From IMG/VR virus record IMGVR_UViG_3300020446_000070, positions 1 to 26,002 of that record: a stretch of 26,002 nucleotides of DNA; one strand, given 5' to 3'. A program made the position numbers and the translations under genes. Below, in pieces: positions 3,205-16,188 of this stretch; position 1 is the first letter of the stretch, and every line of letters begins with the position of its first letter. Under the pieces are notes generated by a model, which saw nothing but the letters and a program-made list of their open reading frames with translations, was not told the origin of the DNA and made no database searches. This DNA comes from a virus.

Positions 3205-3525
3205 ATGGCTTTCAATACATATGATGCGTCGTCAAAGGAAGCACGAATTCTTCGAGCCGAAGCTGGCGACTACATAAAGCGACTTCGCATAGAGAAACAG
3301 TTGACACAAAAGCAAGTGTCTAACGAACTAGGCTTAGACTACTACACGTTTATCTCTCAACTAGAGTGTGGACAAGGTAGGCTCCCGCCAAAGATGTGGG
3401 TGTCTATGGCAAAGATACTTGGCCAGGACCCCAAGAAATTCTCGTTAACAATGCTGTCATTTTATGACCCCTATGCACATCAAGCAATAACAACAGGAAA
3501 GGTACAACTGTATGAGCGTAATTAA
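3205..3525 (+). CDS. XRE-family transcriptional regulator
   Basis: A 106-residue protein with a Cro/CI-type helix-turn-helix over residues 24-72. IKRLRIEKQLTQKQVSNELG gives the first two helices, and LDYYTFISQLECGQGRLP gives the recognition helix and following turn. The C-terminal 30 residues may serve dimerisation. The start at ATG 3205 has AAAGGA upstream. It lies directly downstream of direct and inverted repeats and upstream of the integrase in an overlapping operon, so it most likely controls lysogeny and its own promoter. It lacks a LexA-like peptidase domain, so induction by RecA-driven self-cleavage is not expected. It could be a CI-like repressor or a Cro-like protein; sequence alone does not decide. 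Confidence 0.85.
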   Translation: MAFNTYDASSKEARILRAEAGDYIKRLRIEKQLTQKQVSNELGLDYYTFISQLECGQGRLPPKMWVSMAKILGQDPKKFSLTMLSFYDPYAHQAITTGKVQLYERN

Positions 3526-3898
3526 ACATGACTTTAAGAAACGACCATTAGCATTTACACCTCAAGACATCGCATATTTATACAAAGTAAAACGTTGCTT
3601 TGAGAACAGTGGATTGTCTCCACATGAATTACATTTCGGTGAAACAGATGAGGGCCAAGGTTGGTGTCTTGTTAAACGTCTGTGCAAACATGACGGAATT
3701 AATTGGAAGGACCACATGGGTATTTCTTGCGAGGAATACGCCGACATCGTTGCTGAAATTATAGTGACTAAATTTGGCTACGAACACAGAGGAACGTGGG
3801 GTAAATGGAAAGCGCGGACAATCGAAGGGTTGTTCAAAGATGTAAGAATGCCCGAACTCTATTCTGAGATGATACAAAAGGAAGTCAAAGATGCTTGA
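3512..3898 (+). CDS. Hypothetical protein, 128 aa
   Basis: Overlaps the regulator gene by 14 nt and the integrase gene by 8 nt, so it belongs to the same operon. AGGAAAGG at 3495-3502 precedes the ATG. The soluble protein is rich in Trp, Lys and Glu, with a central GWCLVKRLCKHDGINWKDHMG segment and a helical C-terminus. I recognise no family. Position between a regulator and an integrase suggests an excisionase-like or accessory lysogeny role, but no helix-turn-helix typical of excisionases is evident. Confidence 0.6.
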   Translation: MSVIKHDFKKRPLAFTPQDIAYLYKVKRCFENSGLSPHELHFGETDEGQGWCLVKRLCKHDGINWKDHMGISCEEYADIVAEIIVTKFGYEHRGTWGKWKARTIEGLFKDVRMPELYSEMIQKEVKDA

Positions 3899-4985
3899 AG
3901 TATACAACAGACCTGACAGTCCATACTGGTGGTACAAGATACCACTGTTGGACGACAACGGACACGTCATCAGATATGAACGTGGTTCGACCAAGCGACG
4001 TGACAAACGTGAGGCCAAGTTGGTTGCGAAAGCATACGCCAAGAAGATACAAGACCGCGACCAGTTGGACACGCGAGAGACATCTACGATTCAACAAGCT
4101 GGTCAACGTTATCTCGCGGAACTAATCGCAGAAGGTAAACCTTCACAGAAAGACGCTCGTACTTTTGTGGATCGTTTGTCCAGTGGAACTGCTAGCAGCA
4201 AACCTTTAACTCATTTGAATGCTGGCTTCCTGTCGAACCTCAAACAACAGCGCCTTATGAAGGGCTATGCTGCGCGTACGATTAACAATGAAATTACGTT
4301 TTGGATAACTGTATTTAACAGAGCAAAGAACAGTTGGTACTTGATGGTCGACAAAGATGCTAGGTTCGATGGCATCAAGTTAAAACCGCATCAAAAGACA
4401 CGTTATCTTTTGGACGGCGAAGAAGAACGTCTGCTTGCAGAACTCGAACCTGACGGCGACCCCAAGCGTCAAGACCAGTACGACCTTGTCTTGTTTCTGA
4501 TGGACACCGGAGCCCGATACGACGAGATAGCTAGTGTTCAATGGTCGTCGATTGATACCATCAACTGGACGACAGTGAACCTGTACCGCAACAAGGTGGG
4601 CAACGAGGGTACACTGACGCTGACAGACAGAACACGCGCCATGCTCGAACGACGCTGGCGTACATCAGGAAATAACATTTACGTTTTTCCGTCCGACACG
4701 AAACCAAACGCGCCTCGCGGTTACTCTACAAAGGGTATCCGTCTGGCTATTAAACGTGCCGGACTGAACGAAGAACATCTAGTGAAACGGTACGGTCGGT
4801 TTACTGTTCACTCACTGCGACACACTTTTGCCTCACGGCTAGTGCAAGCGGGGATGTCGCTCTACGCAGTCAGTCAACTGCTAGGGCATTCCGATACAAG
4901 TATGACGCAAAGGTACGCACACCTCGCACCATCACAAGTATCACAACAAGCAGCCGACATACTTAACAAGCGGGAGACAATATGA
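3891..4985 (+). CDS. int: Tyrosine recombinase / phage integrase
   Basis: Catalyses site-specific recombination between attP and the host attB. The 364-residue protein has an N-terminal AP2-like arm-binding region (residues 5-35), a core-binding SAM-like domain (about 65-155) and a catalytic domain (about 170-350). The catalytic set is complete: Arg209 (TGARYDE), Lys235, His307 and Arg310 (HSLRH), His333 (LLGHSD) and the nucleophile Tyr342 (MTQRYAHL). ATG at 3891 overlaps the previous gene. The cognate attP lies about 250 nt downstream, past one small gene, and RNA polymerase follows. This integrase-attP-RNA polymerase order is known from temperate marine T7-like phages such as some pelagiphages. 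Confidence 0.97.
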   Translation: MLEVYNRPDSPYWWYKIPLLDDNGHVIRYERGSTKRRDKREAKLVAKAYAKKIQDRDQLDTRETSTIQQAGQRYLAELIAEGKPSQKDARTFVDRLSSGTASSKPLTHLNAGFLSNLKQQRLMKGYAARTINNEITFWITVFNRAKNSWYLMVDKDARFDGIKLKPHQKTRYLLDGEEERLLAELEPDGDPKRQDQYDLVLFLMDTGARYDEIASVQWSSIDTINWTTVNLYRNKVGNEGTLTLTDRTRAMLERRWRTSGNNIYVFPSDTKPNAPRGYSTKGIRLAIKRAGLNEEHLVKRYGRFTVHSLRHTFASRLVQAGMSLYAVSQLLGHSDTSMTQRYAHLAPSQVSQQAADILNKRETI

Positions 4986-8109: not shown

Positions 8110-8661
8110 ATGGCAAAGCAAAAAGTAAGACCGATTGTCTCACCAGTAGCAACCAGCGCGTACGCATGGTTGGCACGACCAGACGAAGGACAGGAGTTCA
8201 GTGACGGTAAGTACAAAGTTACACTGGTACTGGACAAGGGTGATAAAGAAGTCAAAGACTTCATCGCAGACATCACCAGAGAAGCAGAGGCGCTTGCGAA
8301 GAAAGCGTGGGATGCTGTTCCGAAGAACATGCGTTATCCGTTCAAGGATGGTGACGATTCAGAAAAGGAAGAGTTCCACGGCAAGTGGCTGCTGACTGCA
8401 AAGACAAAGTTCCAGCCTGGATTTGTCGATCAGTTCAATAAACAAATCGATGAGGAAGACATCCCATCGAGCGGTGACCTGATACAAGCGTCATTCAGTT
8501 TGAAAGAGTATGCGACCGGCGGTGGCAAAGGTGTCACTAGTCAGTTGCGTAACGTTAGGCTGATTGAGAAACGCAATACGTCATCAGGCGCATCGAATGA
8601 TTTCGGTGATCCTATCGAGACACCGTCGGAGTCAGGCAATGACTTCGACATCGCGATATGA
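8110..8661 (+). CDS. Single-stranded DNA-binding protein (T7 gp2.5-like)
   Basis: Coats ssDNA during replication and recombination. The 183-residue protein starts MAKQKVRPIVSPVATSAYAW, has an OB-fold-like basic core with GKYKVTLVLDKGD, and ends in an acidic, aromatic tail (ESGNDFDIAI). Such a tail contacts polymerase and helicase in gp2.5-type proteins. AGGAAGA precedes the ATG. Its end overlaps the RusA-type gene by 23 nt in another frame, so the acidic tail codons double as the start of the nuclease gene. Confidence 0.85.
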   Translation: MAKQKVRPIVSPVATSAYAWLARPDEGQEFSDGKYKVTLVLDKGDKEVKDFIADITREAEALAKKAWDAVPKNMRYPFKDGDDSEKEEFHGKWLLTAKTKFQPGFVDQFNKQIDEEDIPSSGDLIQASFSLKEYATGGGKGVTSQLRNVRLIEKRNTSSGASNDFGDPIETPSESGNDFDIAI

Positions 8662-9088
8662 TTTTACGAGCGCAGTTGAAGAACACTTAGGACAGGCTGG
8701 GTACTTGGAATTCTTTATACCAGTTGACCCTGTACCAGCCTCTCGCCCTAGGGTGAGCAAGTGGGGAACGTACTACGGTAAGACATACGAAAACTTTAGG
8801 ACAAAAGTAAGAGAGGCTTTACGCAACCTGACTAACTTATCAGGTGAGCCAATGACCGGTCCTATACATTGTCTGATCGAGATTGTTGCTCCCAAACCGA
8901 AAACAACAAAGAGAGATTACCCGCGTGGCGACGTGGATAATTTTGCAAAAGGTCCACTCGATTCCATGACTTCACATGGTGGCTTCTGGAACGACGACGA
9001 CCAAATCACTGCACTAGCGGTGACCAAGAGATACGCCAAGTCGGATGAACCAACAGGCGTTAGAATAATTTATCAGGAGATAGAATGA
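8639..9088 (+). CDS. RusA-type Holliday junction resolvase
   Basis: Resolves four-way DNA junctions. The 149-residue protein has the RusA pattern: PVPASRPRVSKWG near residue 31, PRGDVDNFAKGPLDSM at 95-110 with metal-binding Asp98 and Asp100, and WNDDDQI at 117-123 with the third acidic site. Start ATG 8639 has GGAG 7 nt upstream and lies 23 nt inside the ssDNA-binding gene; a longer in-frame reading from 8564 has no support. In T7 this place is held by endonuclease I (gp3), also a junction resolvase, so the function seems kept by an unrelated family. The stop overlaps the next ATG. Confidence 0.9.
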   Translation: MTSTSRYDFTSAVEEHLGQAGYLEFFIPVDPVPASRPRVSKWGTYYGKTYENFRTKVREALRNLTNLSGEPMTGPIHCLIEIVAPKPKTTKRDYPRGDVDNFAKGPLDSMTSHGGFWNDDDQITALAVTKRYAKSDEPTGVRIIYQEIE

Positions 9089-10862: not shown

Positions 10863-11246
10863 ATGGCACGAAGACAATCGACGGAAGAGCGCCGGTTGTA
10901 CAGACGAAAGAAGAAAGCAGACCTAGTAGCATATAAGGGCGGGGAGTGTGAACGTTGCGGTCAGAAATATCTACCAGACGTTTACGATTTTCATCATCGT
11001 GATCCAACCACGAAGAAATTCACATTAGATGTATCACGCATGTCAGCGGTGCGTTGGAGCGCAATCATTGAAGAGGCCGATAAATGCCATCTTCTTTGTG
11101 CGAATTGCCACCGCGAGATTCATGCGTTGAAAGAGGAAGAATACTTTGGAAAGCAAAACGATACTAATAGCAGACATCGAGACAGACGGATTCATAGCAA
11201 ACAAATGTCACTGCCTCTCGATATCGAACCTAGCAGCTCCGACTGA
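10863..11246 (+). CDS. HNH endonuclease, overlapping the DNA polymerase gene
   Basis: A 127-residue protein with a basic N-terminus (STEERRLYRRKKKAD) and an HNH nuclease core: CERC at 29-32, FHHRD at 43-47 with the catalytic His pair, and LLCANCHREIH at 77-87 with Cys79 and Cys82 as the second zinc pair. It cuts DNA and looks like a free-standing homing or phage nuclease. The ATG lies 1 nt after the primase-helicase stop and has only a weak, distant SD. The last 33 residues (from about 95) are read in a different frame over the first 101 nt of the polymerase gene and are charged, low-order sequence outside the nuclease fold. Confidence 0.85.
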   Translation: MARRQSTEERRLYRRKKKADLVAYKGGECERCGQKYLPDVYDFHHRDPTTKKFTLDVSRMSAVRWSAIIEEADKCHLLCANCHREIHALKEEEYFGKQNDTNSRHRDRRIHSKQMSLPLDIEPSSSD

Positions 11247-12885
11247 TATAATAACTTACGCGGACGCTGATGGATATCCAGCAATAGAAGAAGGATTGAA
11301 ACGATTACAAGAAGCAGACCACACTGTGTGGCACAATGGTTTAGGGTACGACCATCCAACGCTGGAGCGTTTGTATCCTGACTACCCCATTCCACATGAG
11401 CGAGTGTTAGACACTTTAGTATTGTCTAGATTGCACAACCCGATTCAGCGCAAGCACTCTTTGGAATATTGGGGCGAACAACTTGGACTAGCCAAGATTG
11501 AGTTTACAGATTTCGAAACGTTCACGCCAGCTATGGCAGAGTATTGTGAACGTGATGTGATGGTCACCACAAAAGTATATGAGCATCTATATAAGTCTAT
11601 GGATGGTTTCAAAGGATGGGGTGACGCCATCGAAATGGAACACCGGTTCGCATATGTAATTAACTTACAAGTCGAGCATGGGTTCAAACTGGATGTACAA
11701 AAAGCTGTCGACCTGTCAGCCGAACTCCGACAGGAAATGGCAGACATAGAGATAAAATTACAAGAAGCGTTCCCACCTATCGTGACTGAACGCTATTCAG
11801 AAAAGACAGGCAAAAGATTAAAGGACGGCGTCGAGGTGTTCAATCCTGGAAGTCGTATGCAAATAGCGCAAAGACTTATAGAGCGTTATGATTATGAGCC
11901 TGATACTTTTACTCCGACAGGGTCACCTCGTATCGACGAGGGTATCCTAGCCAAGCTGGATTACCCCGAAGCTAAGATGATATCTCGCTTTCTGTTTTGT
12001 CAGAAACAGTTGAGTCAAATTAGTGAGGGCGCATCCGGCTGGCTAAAGTGTGTGACTGATGCTGGCTATGTACATGGCAAGGTTAACACGATTGGCACGG
12101 CTACATCGAGGTGTAGTCATTGGGGTCCGAACATGGGGCAAATCTCGAAGCGTGATCTAAGGATGCGTGAGATGTGGTTGCCCGACGCTGGACACAAGCT
12201 GGTCGGTTGTGATGCTGACGCGCTCGAACTTCGAATGCTTGCTCACGACCTTGGTCACTTCGATGGCGGGGCGTATGCTGATGCATTGCTCAAAGGATCG
12301 AAGGAAGATGGTACTGATGTGCATTCGCGTACTGGCAAGGTTCTAGGTTTAGCCGACCGTGATATTGTCAAACGTGCAACGTATGCATTTTTGTACGGCG
12401 CTAGTAATCACAAGCTAGGTCAGATTATGGCTGACGCTGGTAAGAAGATGTCGGGTAAAGAAGTCCGACGTCGTATGGAACAAGGCATCACCGGCCTTGA
12501 TAAGTTAGTCAGCATTATCGCTGACAGGTGTGAGCGTGGATACATACTAGGCATTGATGGTAGACGAGTTCCCATCTTGTCACCGCATTCAGCATTGAAC
12601 TTTCGTCTGCAAAGCAGCGGAGCGATTGTGATGAAGAAAGCGTTGGTTGTGTTTCATTTCGACGTTGCGCCTAAAGCCGGTCATGTCGTCAACAACAAAC
12701 CTATCACCTTTAAATACTGCGCGAACGTGCATGACGAAGTTCAGCTTTCTGTTCAGCCGGAATACGCAAAGGAAATTGGTCAGCTATTTGCTAGGTCAAT
12801 TGAGATTGCTGGAACACTACTCGAACTGAAGTGTCCGGTGTCGGGCTCTTATGACATTGGTGATAACTGGAAGGAGACTCACTAA
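11146..12885 (+). CDS. Family A DNA polymerase with 3'-5' exonuclease
   Basis: Replicates the phage genome. The 579-residue protein (T7 gp5: 704) has exonuclease motifs Asp10/Glu12 (ADIETDG), Asp69 (HNGLGYDH) and Tyr133-x3-Asp137, then polymerase motif A with Asp356 (CDADALELR), motif B Lys409-x3-Tyr413 through Tyr417-Gly, and motif C His529-Asp530-Glu531. Tyr413 equals E. coli Pol I Phe762 and T7 Tyr526. The short length argues against a T7-like thioredoxin-binding insert. The start is TTG at 11146, with GAGGA 8 nt upstream; the exonuclease motif begins by residue 7, so a later start is excluded. It starts inside the HNH gene. Confidence 0.95.
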   Translation: MESKTILIADIETDGFIANKCHCLSISNLAAPTDIITYADADGYPAIEEGLKRLQEADHTVWHNGLGYDHPTLERLYPDYPIPHERVLDTLVLSRLHNPIQRKHSLEYWGEQLGLAKIEFTDFETFTPAMAEYCERDVMVTTKVYEHLYKSMDGFKGWGDAIEMEHRFAYVINLQVEHGFKLDVQKAVDLSAELRQEMADIEIKLQEAFPPIVTERYSEKTGKRLKDGVEVFNPGSRMQIAQRLIERYDYEPDTFTPTGSPRIDEGILAKLDYPEAKMISRFLFCQKQLSQISEGASGWLKCVTDAGYVHGKVNTIGTATSRCSHWGPNMGQISKRDLRMREMWLPDAGHKLVGCDADALELRMLAHDLGHFDGGAYADALLKGSKEDGTDVHSRTGKVLGLADRDIVKRATYAFLYGASNHKLGQIMADAGKKMSGKEVRRRMEQGITGLDKLVSIIADRCERGYILGIDGRRVPILSPHSALNFRLQSSGAIVMKKALVVFHFDVAPKAGHVVNNKPITFKYCANVHDEVQLSVQPEYAKEIGQLFARSIEIAGTLLELKCPVSGSYDIGDNWKETH

Positions 12886-13079
12886 TGTGGAAAGTCGTTG
12901 TAGTGGCTTGCAATCTATTCGCACCCGAACAGTGTCTAGTATTTGATGATGCATGGGGTCCATATCAAACAAAAGAACAATGCCTCGAACGTGGGGCCAT
13001 CATGGCTGAAGACGTACTAGAGATGTTACCACCATCACGTTTGTTTTGGCGTTGTGAAGCAGAAAAGGAGATGACATGA
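12885..13079 (+). CDS. Conserved hypothetical Cys-containing protein, 64 aa
   Basis: ATG shares its A with the TAA of the polymerase gene and the end overlaps the exonuclease start, so the three genes are coupled. The protein starts MWKVVVVACN and has three spaced cysteines (C9, C17, C33) and a GPYQTKEQCLERG stretch. Proteins of this plan (hydrophobic start, Cys, GPY-x-T-x-x-x-C) recur in phage and bacterial genomes, but I know no function. No clear signal peptide. Confidence 0.6.
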   Translation: MWKVVVVACNLFAPEQCLVFDDAWGPYQTKEQCLERGAIMAEDVLEMLPPSRLFWRCEAEKEMT

Positions 13080-14089
13080 CAACAGCAATAATCGATGGAG
13101 ACATCGTTGCGTTTAGATCCGCAGCGGCGGTCAGCGAACCTACGGATACACTGATGCCATTCAATCCTAACCATGCAAAAGAATACATGGAACACATGAT
13201 GAATGAGTGGATCAAGCGCGTAAAACCAAACGCTATTGTTATGTGTTTCAGTGATGAATCACGACGTTACTTTCGCCACGAAATCTTTCCTGAGTACAAA
13301 GCCAATCGTGGTGGAATTGAGCGACCTTCTGCACTCAATTTCTGTTATGAATATCTATCAGAAAAATACAAGGTTGTTCGTAAAGCAAACTTAGAAGCTG
13401 ATGACTTGTTGGGAATCTTAGGCACTCAGCCTGATATAGATAACCCTGTAATTATTAGCATCGATAAAGACATAATGACTTTGCCTTGTAAGGTATTTAA
13501 TCCGGACAAAATGCGACGACCTATTCGCATCAACCCTAACATGGCTGACCTTGCTGTATTCAAGCAAGCTATGGTGGGCGACAGTTCCGACAACTACAAA
13601 GGCATTCCGGGTGTAGGTACAGTAAAAGCAGATAAGGTATTACTGAATGCCCCACACCCAAAACTAGCATGGGATGTAACGCGCCAAGCGTTCCTCGATG
13701 CTGGACTAACAGAAGACTATGCCATCCTCATGGTTCGCCTAGCGCGTATCCTGAGACATGGCGACTATAAAGAAACTACCGGAGAAGTAAGACTATGGAC
13801 AGCAAACCAGCCAGACATATGGATGAAGCCATCAGCCCAAGCCATTACCAATTCAGAGCAACCGTCACCCTCGACGACGGAACAAAAGTCTCTGCCACCA
13901 TCGAAACCAAAGACTACATCAAAGCAGTCTGTCGGACACTCGAAGGTGACGAAGCGTGGGCGGTCAGCAACATCCTCAAGTACATCAGCCGGTACAGAAC
14001 CAAGCACAAAGAAAACGTCAAGCGCGACATCAACAAAGCAATCGAATACACGGACTTCCTCATCGAAATCCTCAAAGAAAAAGGGGTAA
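13076..14089 (+). CDS. 5'-3' exonuclease (T7 gp6 / FEN-like) with Ser/Thr/Lys-rich tail
   Basis: Degrades DNA from 5' ends and removes primers. The 337-residue protein has the FEN/5'-nuclease acidic sites: Asp8 in IDGD, YKANR at 74-78, EADD at 107-110, SIDKD at 128-132 and GDSSDNYKGIPGVG at 168-181, the last including the helix-hairpin-helix DNA contact. The nuclease fold ends near residue 240. The remaining ~98 residues are almost only Ser, Thr, Lys, Pro and Gln, basic and probably disordered, and are read out of frame over the DUF3310 gene (295-nt overlap). The core is close in length to other phage 5' exonucleases; the tail is extra. Confidence 0.92.
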   Translation: MTTAIIDGDIVAFRSAAAVSEPTDTLMPFNPNHAKEYMEHMMNEWIKRVKPNAIVMCFSDESRRYFRHEIFPEYKANRGGIERPSALNFCYEYLSEKYKVVRKANLEADDLLGILGTQPDIDNPVIISIDKDIMTLPCKVFNPDKMRRPIRINPNMADLAVFKQAMVGDSSDNYKGIPGVGTVKADKVLLNAPHPKLAWDVTRQAFLDAGLTEDYAILMVRLARILRHGDYKETTGEVRLWTANQPDIWMKPSAQAITNSEQPSPSTTEQKSLPPSKPKTTSKQSVGHSKVTKRGRSATSSSTSAGTEPSTKKTSSATSTKQSNTRTSSSKSSKKKG

Positions 14090-14106
14090 TCAATGATGAA
14101 AGATAG
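13795..14106 (+). CDS. DUF3310-family protein
   Basis: A 103-residue protein with the DUF3310 pattern: PSHY at 15-18, an IETKDYIKAV helix at 36-45, and NILKYISRYRTK at 59-70 followed by DINKAIEYTDFLI. Family members are common in phage nucleotide-metabolism modules; T7 gp1.7, a nucleotide kinase, is reported to be related, so a nucleotide role is plausible. ATG 13795 has GGAGAAG 8-14 nt upstream; an ATG further in is possible. Almost the whole gene lies within the 3' end of the exonuclease gene in another frame, and its end overlaps the MazG-like gene by 14 nt. Confidence 0.8.
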   Translation: MDSKPARHMDEAISPSHYQFRATVTLDDGTKVSATIETKDYIKAVCRTLEGDEAWAVSNILKYISRYRTKHKENVKRDINKAIEYTDFLIEILKEKGVINDER

Positions 14107-14497
14107 AAGCAGAGAAATGGCTGTGATGGAATTCAATAAGGCATTCGATCACCCTATTGATACGCGCATGACAGTTGACGAACTGATGCTACGTTTCGAA
14201 TTCATTAGAGAGGAATTTGAAGAATTTTCACTAGAGGTACATAACGCTGGGTGGCGTCTGTCTCATGGCAAACCACCGGACAACCTTGAGAACCTTCTGA
14301 AAGAACTAACGGATTTACAATATGTAGTAAGTGGCTTTGCTGTGGTTTTCGGCCTACCACTGCAAGTCGCTTTCAACAGAGTGCATCAATCAAACATGTC
14401 GAAGTTAGGCGACGATGGAAAGCCCATCAAGCGTGACGACGGTAAAGTATTAAAAGGCCCAAACTATAAAGAACCAAATCTCAAGGACTTAATATGA
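14093..14497 (+). CDS. MazG-like nucleotide pyrophosphohydrolase
   Basis: Members hydrolyse (d)NTPs or ppGpp-like substrates to monophosphates and pyrophosphate. The 134-residue protein shows the all-alpha NTP-PPase plan: an acidic helix with E40, E41, E43 and E44, and ELTDLQYVV at 71-79 with the second metal site (Glu71, Asp74). The C-terminus has a phage-typical VHQSNMSKLGDDGKPI-like stretch and a KGPNY motif. GGGG 6 nt before the ATG is the SD. It lies between DUF3310 and RNR, so a role in nucleotide supply fits. Confidence 0.88.
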   Translation: MMKDRSREMAVMEFNKAFDHPIDTRMTVDELMLRFEFIREEFEEFSLEVHNAGWRLSHGKPPDNLENLLKELTDLQYVVSGFAVVFGLPLQVAFNRVHQSNMSKLGDDGKPIKRDDGKVLKGPNYKEPNLKDLI

Positions 14498-16188
14498 CAA
14501 TATCAAATTACCACTATGGACCTACTCTTCCCCTCTCACAAGAAATCGACCGCGAGAAGTATCGCCAAGAGGGTGAAGACTTTTATCAAAAAGTAACTCG
14601 CATCGCTCAAGCATTAAAAGACAGCGGTGACCACTTTGAAGAGTTTCGTGATGCACTACGGCACATGCGTTTCCTACCGGCTGGTCGTGTGCAGAATGCT
14701 GTTGGCGCTGCGCGTCAAACTACAGCGTTCAACTGTTTTGTCAGTTCGCCTATCGAAGATTCGATGGACTCGATCATGGCAGTAGCTACTGAGGCTGCTG
14801 AAACAATGAGGCGAGGCGGTGGTATTGGATACGACTTTAGCAAGATCCGACCGCGTGGTGACAGAATCAAATCATTAGACAGTAAAGCATCAGGCCCAAT
14901 AAGTTTCATGGGTATCTTCGACGCGGTGTGTCAGACCATAGCTTCGAGCGGCCACAGACGCGGCGCGCAAATGGGTTGCATGTTGATATCCCACCCCGAT
15001 ATCGAGGAGTTTATTCTAGCTAAGAATAACTCTGACAAACTATTAGGATTCAATATCTCAATCCTAGTTACTGACAAGTTTATGGAATGCTTACAGTCTG
15101 GTGAGAAGTTCCCTCTTGAGTACGACGGAAGAGTCTATAAAGAAGTAGACCCTAAAGCGCTATGGGATATGGTCATGCGTTCGACTTGGGATTACGCGGA
15201 GCCAGGCGTTCTGTTTGTCGATACTATCAATAAAAACAATAACTTATGGTACTGTGAAACAATCTCTGCGACTAATCCATGCGCCGAACAGCCTCTACCT
15301 CACAACGGTGCGTGTCTGTTAGGGTCATTCAACTTGGTTAAATATGTCCTTGATGGTGCGTTTGATTACGGCGCTCTGACTCGCGACATATATCCAGTAG
15401 TCCGCGCTATGGATAATGTAGTTGATAGAACCATCTACCCACTACCGGCTCAAGAAAAGGAAGCTAAAGAGAAAAGACGTATGGGTCTAGGTGTTACCGG
15501 ACTAGCTAACGCTGGTGCGATGATGGGTCTAGATTATGCCAGCCCAAAGTTTATGGAATGGATGCATAAAGTATTAGGTATCATTCGTGATCACTGTTAT
15601 GCGGCATCGGCTGACCTCGCAAATGAGAAGGGAAGTTTCCATAAATACGAAGAAGAAATGTACACTCAAGGCGACTTCTATAAGACCCTTTCTGATTGGG
15701 TCAAAGAAAAGATTGTAAAACAAGGACTTAGGAACTCTCACCTACTTTCGATTGCACCGACCGGAACTATCAGTCTGGTTGCTGACAACGTGTCTTCTGG
15801 TATCGAGCCACCTTTCTCTTTGTATTACGACAGAACCATTCAGCATTTTGAGGGCTCTAAGGTCGAGCGTGTAGAAGACTATGCGTATCGTCAGGGGTAT
15901 GTCGGTAAGACTGCCAATGAGATTACCGCTCAAGACCATGTTCGTGTTCTTGCTTGTGCATCTGCTTATGTTGATTCAGCGGTGTCTAAAACGTGCAACG
16001 TTGGTGACGATGTTCCGTATGAGGAATTTAAGACGCTATACGAAAATGCATGGGCTCTTGGCTGTAAAGGCATAACGACCTTTAGGGCTGCTGGAAAGCG
16101 ATATGGCGTTTTGAACGAAGTAAAAGAAGAGCCAAAAGCAGAGGCTTGCTACATCGACCCAGCAACCGGACAAAAGGAGTGTGCTTAA
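14494..16188 (+). CDS. nrdJ: Class II (adenosylcobalamin-dependent) ribonucleotide reductase
   Basis: Reduces ribonucleotides to deoxyribonucleotides. The 564-residue protein carries Cys81 (AFNCFVSS), the radical site Asn261-Cys263-Glu265 (NPCAEQPL), the partner Cys274 (ACLLGSFNL), an APTGTISL phosphate loop and C-terminal cysteines 552 and 563 for re-reduction. The lack of a small-subunit gene nearby and the short monomer favour class II, like the enzymes of cyanopodoviruses. It overlaps MazG (ATGA) and the next gene by 1 nt. The host must supply cobalamin and thioredoxin or a substitute; none is encoded here. Confidence 0.9.
   Translation: MTISNYHYGPTLPLSQEIDREKYRQEGEDFYQKVTRIAQALKDSGDHFEEFRDALRHMRFLPAGRVQNAVGAARQTTAFNCFVSSPIEDSMDSIMAVATEAAETMRRGGGIGYDFSKIRPRGDRIKSLDSKASGPISFMGIFDAVCQTIASSGHRRGAQMGCMLISHPDIEEFILAKNNSDKLLGFNISILVTDKFMECLQSGEKFPLEYDGRVYKEVDPKALWDMVMRSTWDYAEPGVLFVDTINKNNNLWYCETISATNPCAEQPLPHNGACLLGSFNLVKYVLDGAFDYGALTRDIYPVVRAMDNVVDRTIYPLPAQEKEAKEKRRMGLGVTGLANAGAMMGLDYASPKFMEWMHKVLGIIRDHCYAASADLANEKGSFHKYEEEMYTQGDFYKTLSDWVKEKIVKQGLRNSHLLSIAPTGTISLVADNVSSGIEPPFSLYYDRTIQHFEGSKVERVEDYAYRQGYVGKTANEITAQDHVRVLACASAYVDSAVSKTCNVGDDVPYEEFKTLYENAWALGCKGITTFRAAGKRYGVLNEVKEEPKAEACYIDPATGQKECA

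Follow-up and report, generated by a model that had tools for sequence, protein, structure and literature searches.

Long out-of-frame overlap of a T7 gp6-like exonuclease gene with a DUF3310 gene in a clade of viral contigs

Introduction

The closest described relatives of the enzyme considered here are the T7 gp6-type exonucleases (PHROG 107; PF02739/PF01367). T7 gp6 itself ends Leu-Trp-Arg-Pro-stop, and its gene overlaps the following gene, 6.3, by 13 nt. The accessible part of PMC8903798 gives a median overlap length of 15.6 nt for DNA viruses (interquartile range 8.5–61 nt), and that of PMC7017920 places 84% of overlaps over all viruses below 50 nt. Overprinted viral proteins are typically disordered, according to the part of the source available (PMC8227390). 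A second relevant system is T7 gp1.7, residues 122–184 of which match the Pfam model PF11753 (DUF3310); the domain is cited as implicated in the nucleotide kinase activity of gp1.7 in the accessible portion of PMC9339283.

Here, we analyze a viral DNA stretch of 26,002 nt (IMG/VR record IMGVR_UViG_3300020446_000070, hereafter "the window", meaning the whole stretch), in which the gene of a gp6-like exonuclease continues through almost the whole of a DUF3310 gene in another reading frame. The initial annotation, made from the letters of the window, had described an exonuclease tail overprinted on a DUF3310 gene over 295 nt and had called overlaps of this size rare; the length is indeed far above the DNA-virus median of 15.6 nt in the part of PMC8903798 cited above. 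Our literature search found no paper on an exonuclease/DUF3310 overlap, which is weak evidence of absence given incomplete coverage, mostly without subscription papers.

Results

Gene layout of the window

The source of the window is a T7-like phage. Its genes include those for an RNA polymerase, a gp2.5-like protein, a T7-type primase-helicase, a family A DNA polymerase, the exonuclease, a MazG-like protein and a ribonucleotide reductase, as well as head-tail genes and an integrase, in an order that we take to resemble that of T7. The phage integrase gene (3891–4985) lies beside a repressor-like ORF (3205–3525), and together these suggest a temperate lifestyle.

The exonuclease gene (13,076–14,089, plus strand) has an ATG start and encodes a 337-aa protein, of which the overprinted tail is part. 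Residues 2–243 match PHROG 107 (exonuclease; E = 2.8e-53); the PF02739 and PF01367 matches extend as far as residue 190, the latter scoring under its cut-off. AlphaFold2, supplied with 26 aligned sequences, predicted a confident 5'-nuclease core, with pLDDT ≥90 in 204 of the 337 residues and high values throughout the core save one short stretch. The best Foldseek matches of this model in the PDB were solved 5'-nucleases (E down to 6.8e-12), including plastid exonuclease 1, T5 D15 and E. coli ExoIX. By profile and by predicted FEN-superfamily fold, the protein is a member of the T7 gp6-like family, from which its 5'–3' exonuclease activity is predicted. Conservation and the AlphaFold2 model delimit a core of residues 1–241 (13,076–13,798, plus strand) that ends Leu-Trp. 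The ending a few residues past Leu-Trp that is present in T7 is absent from the window exonuclease, which has 96 further residues; we regard the long ending as a variant of the family and do not take the short ending as a requirement for membership. Since the PHROG 107 match ends at residue 243, about 94 residues lie beyond the recognizable enzyme.

The second ORF (13,795–14,106, plus strand; 103 aa, ATG start) matches PF11753 with E = 7.3e-8 and 32.8 bits, against a curated cut-off of 24. It is nested in the exonuclease gene save for its last 17 nt, and both ORFs are present as initially annotated: the out-of-frame overlap of 295 nt (13,795–14,089, plus strand) is real. In the register of the overlap, DUF3310 codon position 2 is exonuclease codon position 1. 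Upstream of the DUF3310 ATG, the exonuclease codons Thr-Gly-Glu-Val contain a Shine-Dalgarno-like sequence, CGGAGAAG (13,780–13,787, plus strand). The ATG of the next gene, assigned by Pfam and PHROG to a MazG/PRA-PH-like pyrophosphohydrolase (14,093–14,497, plus strand), lies 3 nt past the exonuclease stop, inside the end of the DUF3310 gene. With no significant structural match either in a fold search of the DUF3310 model against the PDB (best E = 0.48) or in a profile search of solved chains (best E = 0.58), it is the Pfam domain shared with gp1.7 that points to a putative role as a nucleotide kinase.

A programmed frameshift yielding an exonuclease-DUF3310 fusion was also considered for the window: a scan of 13,700–14,086 in one codon phase found a single slippery heptamer, at 14,080, too close to the end to be relevant. 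The overlap is also covered by a 123-aa ORF on the minus strand (13,765–14,136). The antisense frame aligned with the DUF3310 codons holds 0–1 stops in every one of the 35 clade contigs described below, and its openness is probably a side effect of C-rich codons and few Leu and Ser codons.

Several other gene ends in the window overlap. An HNH endonuclease-like ORF (10,863–11,246; PHROG 2255, residues 7–101) reaches 101 nt into the DNA polymerase ORF (11,146–12,885), whose first in-frame start is a TTG at 11,146. The stretch just after this TTG resembles what we take to be a 3'–5' exonuclease motif. If the TTG start is right, the window would contain another C-terminal tail overlap of this type, on a smaller scale. 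The gene for the gp2.5-like protein (8110–8661), which has an acidic end, overlaps a RusA-like ORF (8564–9088) by 98 nt if the TTG start of the latter is used; methionines at residues 12 and 26 of the RusA-like ORF would shorten this overlap. A 121-aa ORF without a PHROG match (1326–1691) overlaps the end of a DNA methyltransferase gene (511–1497) by 172 nt, which its Met58 (at 1497) would reduce to an ordinary 1 nt.

Conservation of the overlap in related contigs

To the window we added 34 relatives, one locus per contig, giving a set of 35 with core identities to the window of 52–94%. Rows too remote or too partial for the core end to be placed (L095–L097, L100, L101, L129–L135) were dropped, as was L242, which runs off its contig. 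All tail carriers found were IMG/VR contigs and none was a named phage record; a search of genome contigs returned two remote partial relatives. The exonuclease frame is open over the DUF3310 gene in 35 of 35 contigs, the window included. Two of these (L123 and L125) run off the contig, and in the 33 that reach the tail stop the tails measure 75–114 aa and the overlaps 232–300 nt. The DUF3310 ATG occupies the same place in all 35, formed by the third base of the Leu codon together with the two bases that open the Trp codon, and GGAG or GAGG occurs within 22 bases before it in every contig (counted by eye). Where the whole DUF3310 gene is held, its product has 84–103 aa. A tree that leaves out L128 (partial core) joins its 34 tail-bearing rows in one clade with support 100/99, with one long-branch join with an outgroup flagged. 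The initial proposal of dual coding is thus borne out by two frames that are open and conserved throughout the set; early stops in the tail frame turned up solely outside this clade.

Relative to L007 and a second ring of relatives, DUF3310 is 12 residues longer in the window and in most of its close subclade. This indel, at 13,855–13,900 of the window (about DUF3310 residues 23–34), keeps both frames and so lengthens the tail too. In L007 (2088–2429), the tail frame continues for 55 nt past the end of DUF3310 and enters the MazG-like gene, so that three genes are crowded together.

Outside the clade, the exonuclease stops 2–6 residues past Leu-Trp in 73 of 73 loci with 37–46% identity (L008–L080) and 5 residues past it in L092–L094. 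A wider census sampled the best 80 of at least 600 stretches and gave 77 loci, one of them not assessable; tails of 0–19 aa were found in 71 of the remaining 76, and long tails in five. Among named phages, a protein search returned 1617 records, all below 60% identity, and 11 of the best 60 of these 1617 cover at least 80% of the query; in the subset of matches opened individually, no long tail was found. A DNA search with 12,885–14,500 against named phages matched only at the MazG end, in four records. In eleven phages of Pelagibacter, Roseobacter, Desulfovibrio and Pseudomonas, a DUF3310-like gene occupies the corresponding place, in the same register, and overlaps the exonuclease gene by 13–19 nt; in all 11 the exonuclease frame meets one to seven further stops. 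Of these short-overlap controls, four were run against Pfam and all four scored above the DUF3310 cut-off; the other seven are DUF3310-like by eye. Mesorhizobium phage Lo5R7ANS gave a weaker, sub-threshold DUF3310 match, and in Synechococcus phage S-SRP01 the gene overlapped is NblA-like, over 59 nt and in another register. With a DUF3310-like gene already in place in outgroups that overlap only briefly and have no tail, the brief overlap seems to be the ancestral state and the tail a later gain, in line with the earlier suggestion that the tail was overprinted on an older gene.

Composition and predicted structure of the tail

For the re-coding, codon and composition tests, 21 of the 35 contigs served as representatives, 14 near-copies being left out; frame openness and stops were counted in all 35. 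In the window, the tail after Trp241 (13,799–14,086, plus strand) comprises 96 residues, among them 24 Ser, 16 Thr, 14 Lys and 8 Pro, with a net charge of +13. AlphaFold2 gave pLDDT below 50, mostly near 30, over residues 256–337, a prediction of disorder that agrees with the disordered tail first described. Short strands were predicted at residues 238–240 and 248–250, and these are presumably paired in the model. In a Pfam search, the tail had no meaningful match (best E = 0.37). The net charge of the tail is positive in 21 of 21 representatives, at +2 to +14. Mean column identity in the subclade of the window is 63% for the tail versus 77% for DUF3310, and pN exceeds pS in the tail in about half of 32 pairs (15–17, counted by eye), so that the exact sequence appears loosely held and a specific binding motif is not indicated.

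Tests for selection on the tail frame

When the DUF3310 gene of the window was re-coded synonymously with the phage codon usage outside the overlap, the tail frame stayed open in 0 of 4000 draws. The probability of an open frame was below 0.05 in 18 of the 21 representatives, the exceptions being L107 (0.19), L121 (0.06) and L137 (0.06). Between 9 and 22 silent one-base changes per sequence could create a stop in the tail frame, yet none of the 35 sequences carries one.

The DUF3310 codons within the overlap are strongly skewed. In the window, all 21 of the I/L/V/F codons that DUF3310 has within the overlap end in C, versus 18 of 60 in the exonuclease core, and the C-ending share is 75–100% over the 21 representatives versus at most 57% in the 11 controls that lack the long overlap. 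C in place of T at DUF3310 third positions puts Ser, Thr, Ala and Pro into the tail instead of Phe, Leu, Ile and Val, and is not needed for avoiding stops. In six loci whose neighboring gene outlasts the exonuclease frame (L181, a near copy of L180, being left out of the pool), the third-position C:T ratio is 213:36 in the overlap versus 17:23 after the exonuclease stop (p = 1.8e-8; as the Fisher tests treat sites as independent, the sequences share ancestry and some of the compared pairs share branches, p-values are to be read as guides). Of the 40 counts after the stop, 28 come from L179, which has a C-rich core (90:43), and L119 alone shows the opposite tendency (3:1). In view of the controls and of this fade, we reject a C bias that is general to the DUF3310 gene.

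Silent divergence pooled over nine clade pairs was 0.268 in DUF3310 versus 0.506 in the core (p = 2.5e-19) and was lower in DUF3310 in all nine. In five control pairs, two of which use L170, the values were 0.489 and 0.445, respectively (p = 0.27). Among these, the pair L157–L176 showed a lowered DUF3310 divergence (ratio 0.52) and another pair a raised one (2.92); L157 and L176 each have 12 of 21 I/L/V/F codons ending in C in DUF3310 versus 20 of 57 and 20 of 54 in their cores. Silent divergence of DUF3310 in the clade is thus about half that of the core, and the controls show no overall drop, a synonymous-site pattern that upholds dual coding.

Tails simulated from the overlap geometry, with stops excluded, allowed composition to be assessed as well. 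Ser and Thr exceed this expectation in 21 of 21 representatives (p ≤ 0.012), and hydrophobic residues fall below it in 21 of 21 (p ≤ 0.0007). Net charge exceeds what the DUF3310 protein would lead one to expect in none of the 21, and in 15 of them the real tail is no more basic than at least 95% of the simulated ones. Taken together, these tests statistically support dual coding with selection on the openness and hydrophilic composition of the tail; the basic character remarked on in the initial annotation does not emerge as a selected property.

Long tails beyond the main set

The five further long-tail loci vary in the gene that is overlapped. L180 and L181 have a 70-aa tail over DUF3310, and the tails of L182 (82 aa) and L184 (76 aa) lie over a DUF3310 gene of different appearance that starts with TTG. 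In L179, a 52-aa Ser/Lys/Arg-rich tail lies over a non-homologous DUF6378 gene (E = 4.2e-28). L180, L181, L182 and L184 match the pattern of the main set, with probabilities of an open frame of 0.0025–0.045. The statistics of L179, a single contig, are weak: the probability of an open frame is 0.14, with p = 0.07 for Ser/Thr and p = 0.03 for hydrophobic residues, and its net charge is somewhat above expected (p = 0.07). Its third-position C:T ratio is 21:5 inside the overlap versus 12:16 after it. The shifts in Ser/Thr and hydrophobic residues go in the same direction in all five loci and are weakest in L179.

A second tree, built from a chosen 36 of the 77 census loci, places L179 inside the tail clade beside L180/L181 (100/99). 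Its 22-row clade (100/98) contains all of its 20 long-tail rows together with L183 (19 aa) and L195 (15 aa). A single origin of the long tails is possible, but their monophyly is weakly supported in this tree (16/1).

Discussion

The account that we favor, and consider reasonably probable on these comparisons, is that the exonuclease was extended by ancestral stop loss through the DUF3310 gene and that a flexible, Ser/Thr-rich tail of low hydrophobicity was selected. In the outgroups, the ATG of the next gene consists of the last Leu base and the first two bases of the terminal Trp codon, with a stop a few codons on, and we take this to be the ancestral state. That stop and the further in-frame stops (one to seven in the 11 controls) would then have been lost, giving a longer exonuclease. 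Selection, as the statistics support, would keep the frame open and favor C over T at DUF3310 third positions, while DUF3310 would still be translated separately, from the start codon and Shine-Dalgarno-like site that lie inside the exonuclease gene. That the exonuclease protein carries the tail would follow from the open frame. At its beginning, the tail may dock onto the core through a predicted short strand, and the remainder would form a bulk disordered tether in which composition matters more than exact sequence. A flexible tether is the likeliest task of the tail, which would most likely tune where the exonuclease acts or with which partners.

The main rival places the benefit in translation: the extended frame would carry exonuclease ribosomes over the DUF3310 gene and release them near the next start, regulating DUF3310 or coupling to MazG, and the tail would merely be harmless and for that reason Ser/Thr-rich. 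A harmless tail would be hydrophilic too; in the window the exonuclease stop lies 3 nt before the MazG ATG, and of the 33 contigs in which the tail stop is present, 29 have an ATG at most 16 nt from it, whether or not it is a gene start in each. The reading is weakened by tails that end 26–155 nt before the end of the neighboring gene: the tail stop precedes the DUF3310 stop by 50 nt in L119 and by 26 nt in L137–L139, none of which has an ATG near the tail stop, and precedes the stop of the neighbor by about 47 nt in L180/L181 and about 155 nt in L179. Moreover, DUF3310 ribosomes already finish beside the MazG start, so coupling needs no tail, and we judge this role unlikely. Less likely again is that a basic tail was selected for non-specific DNA binding, raising the affinity of the exonuclease, as the initial annotation had suggested. 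The enzyme acts on DNA and the tail is net positive in every representative, but its charge is never above expectation and mostly lies at the low end of the simulations; Ser/Thr are raised and hydrophobics lowered, not charge, so that the suggestion, though possible, gains no support.

A constraint at the nucleotide level, from RNA structure or from a preference of DUF3310 for C-ending codons, would make the tail a neutral by-product, since C for T at third positions would open the frame too. In its favor, the two Roseobacter phage controls (near kin) show a mild C preference in DUF3310 without the long overlap (12 of 21 each). However, no control reaches the 75–100% of the tail clade, the C bias fades past the exonuclease stop (although mostly on counts from L179), and the third forward frame over the overlap keeps 1–7 stops in 35 of 35 contigs, which together make this explanation very improbable. 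ORFs of about 100 codons do arise by chance in single genomes. A chance open frame in one genome, or an assembly error, is nevertheless refuted by the 35 open contigs and by the failure of all 4000 re-codings to keep the frame of the window open, and we give it practically no credence.

With selection for a flexible tail as the preferred reading, a broader idea can be put forward tentatively, as a possibility that we hold with less confidence: the tail may be selected as bulk disordered matter and not as a sequence, and overprinting may act as a cheap tail generator on whatever gene lies downstream, yielding a similar Ser/Thr/basic tail in the same register on differing neighbors (L182/L184 and L179). 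On the favored account, the locus would stand as a clear example, in a dsDNA phage, of a replication enzyme of old origin that acquired a long disordered tail encoded over the next gene. Its short-overlap ancestral state (13–19 nt), its many clade members and the control for codon bias found within single genes allow a test of whether overprinted proteins are disordered because of the geometry of the overlap or because disorder is selected as such; in the present clade, composition departs from what geometry predicts and charge does not.

With the T7 gp6-type exonucleases the locus shares the core of residues 1–241, a DNA polymerase gene upstream, nucleotide-metabolism genes downstream and a neighboring gene that likewise starts at the Leu-Trp codons; it differs in the 75–114 residues by which the clade continues where T7 gp6 stops. 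The domain shared with T7 gp1.7 forms here a stand-alone protein of 84–103 aa, encoded by the same DNA as the exonuclease tail. As in the overprinted viral proteins described in the accessible part of PMC8227390, a new frame lies over an older gene and its composition is biased toward disorder. The present case differs from those proteins in that the new coding would lengthen an old dsDNA phage enzyme at its C-terminus rather than yield a free-standing product, and in that the Ser/Thr excess of the tail goes beyond frame geometry and codon usage.
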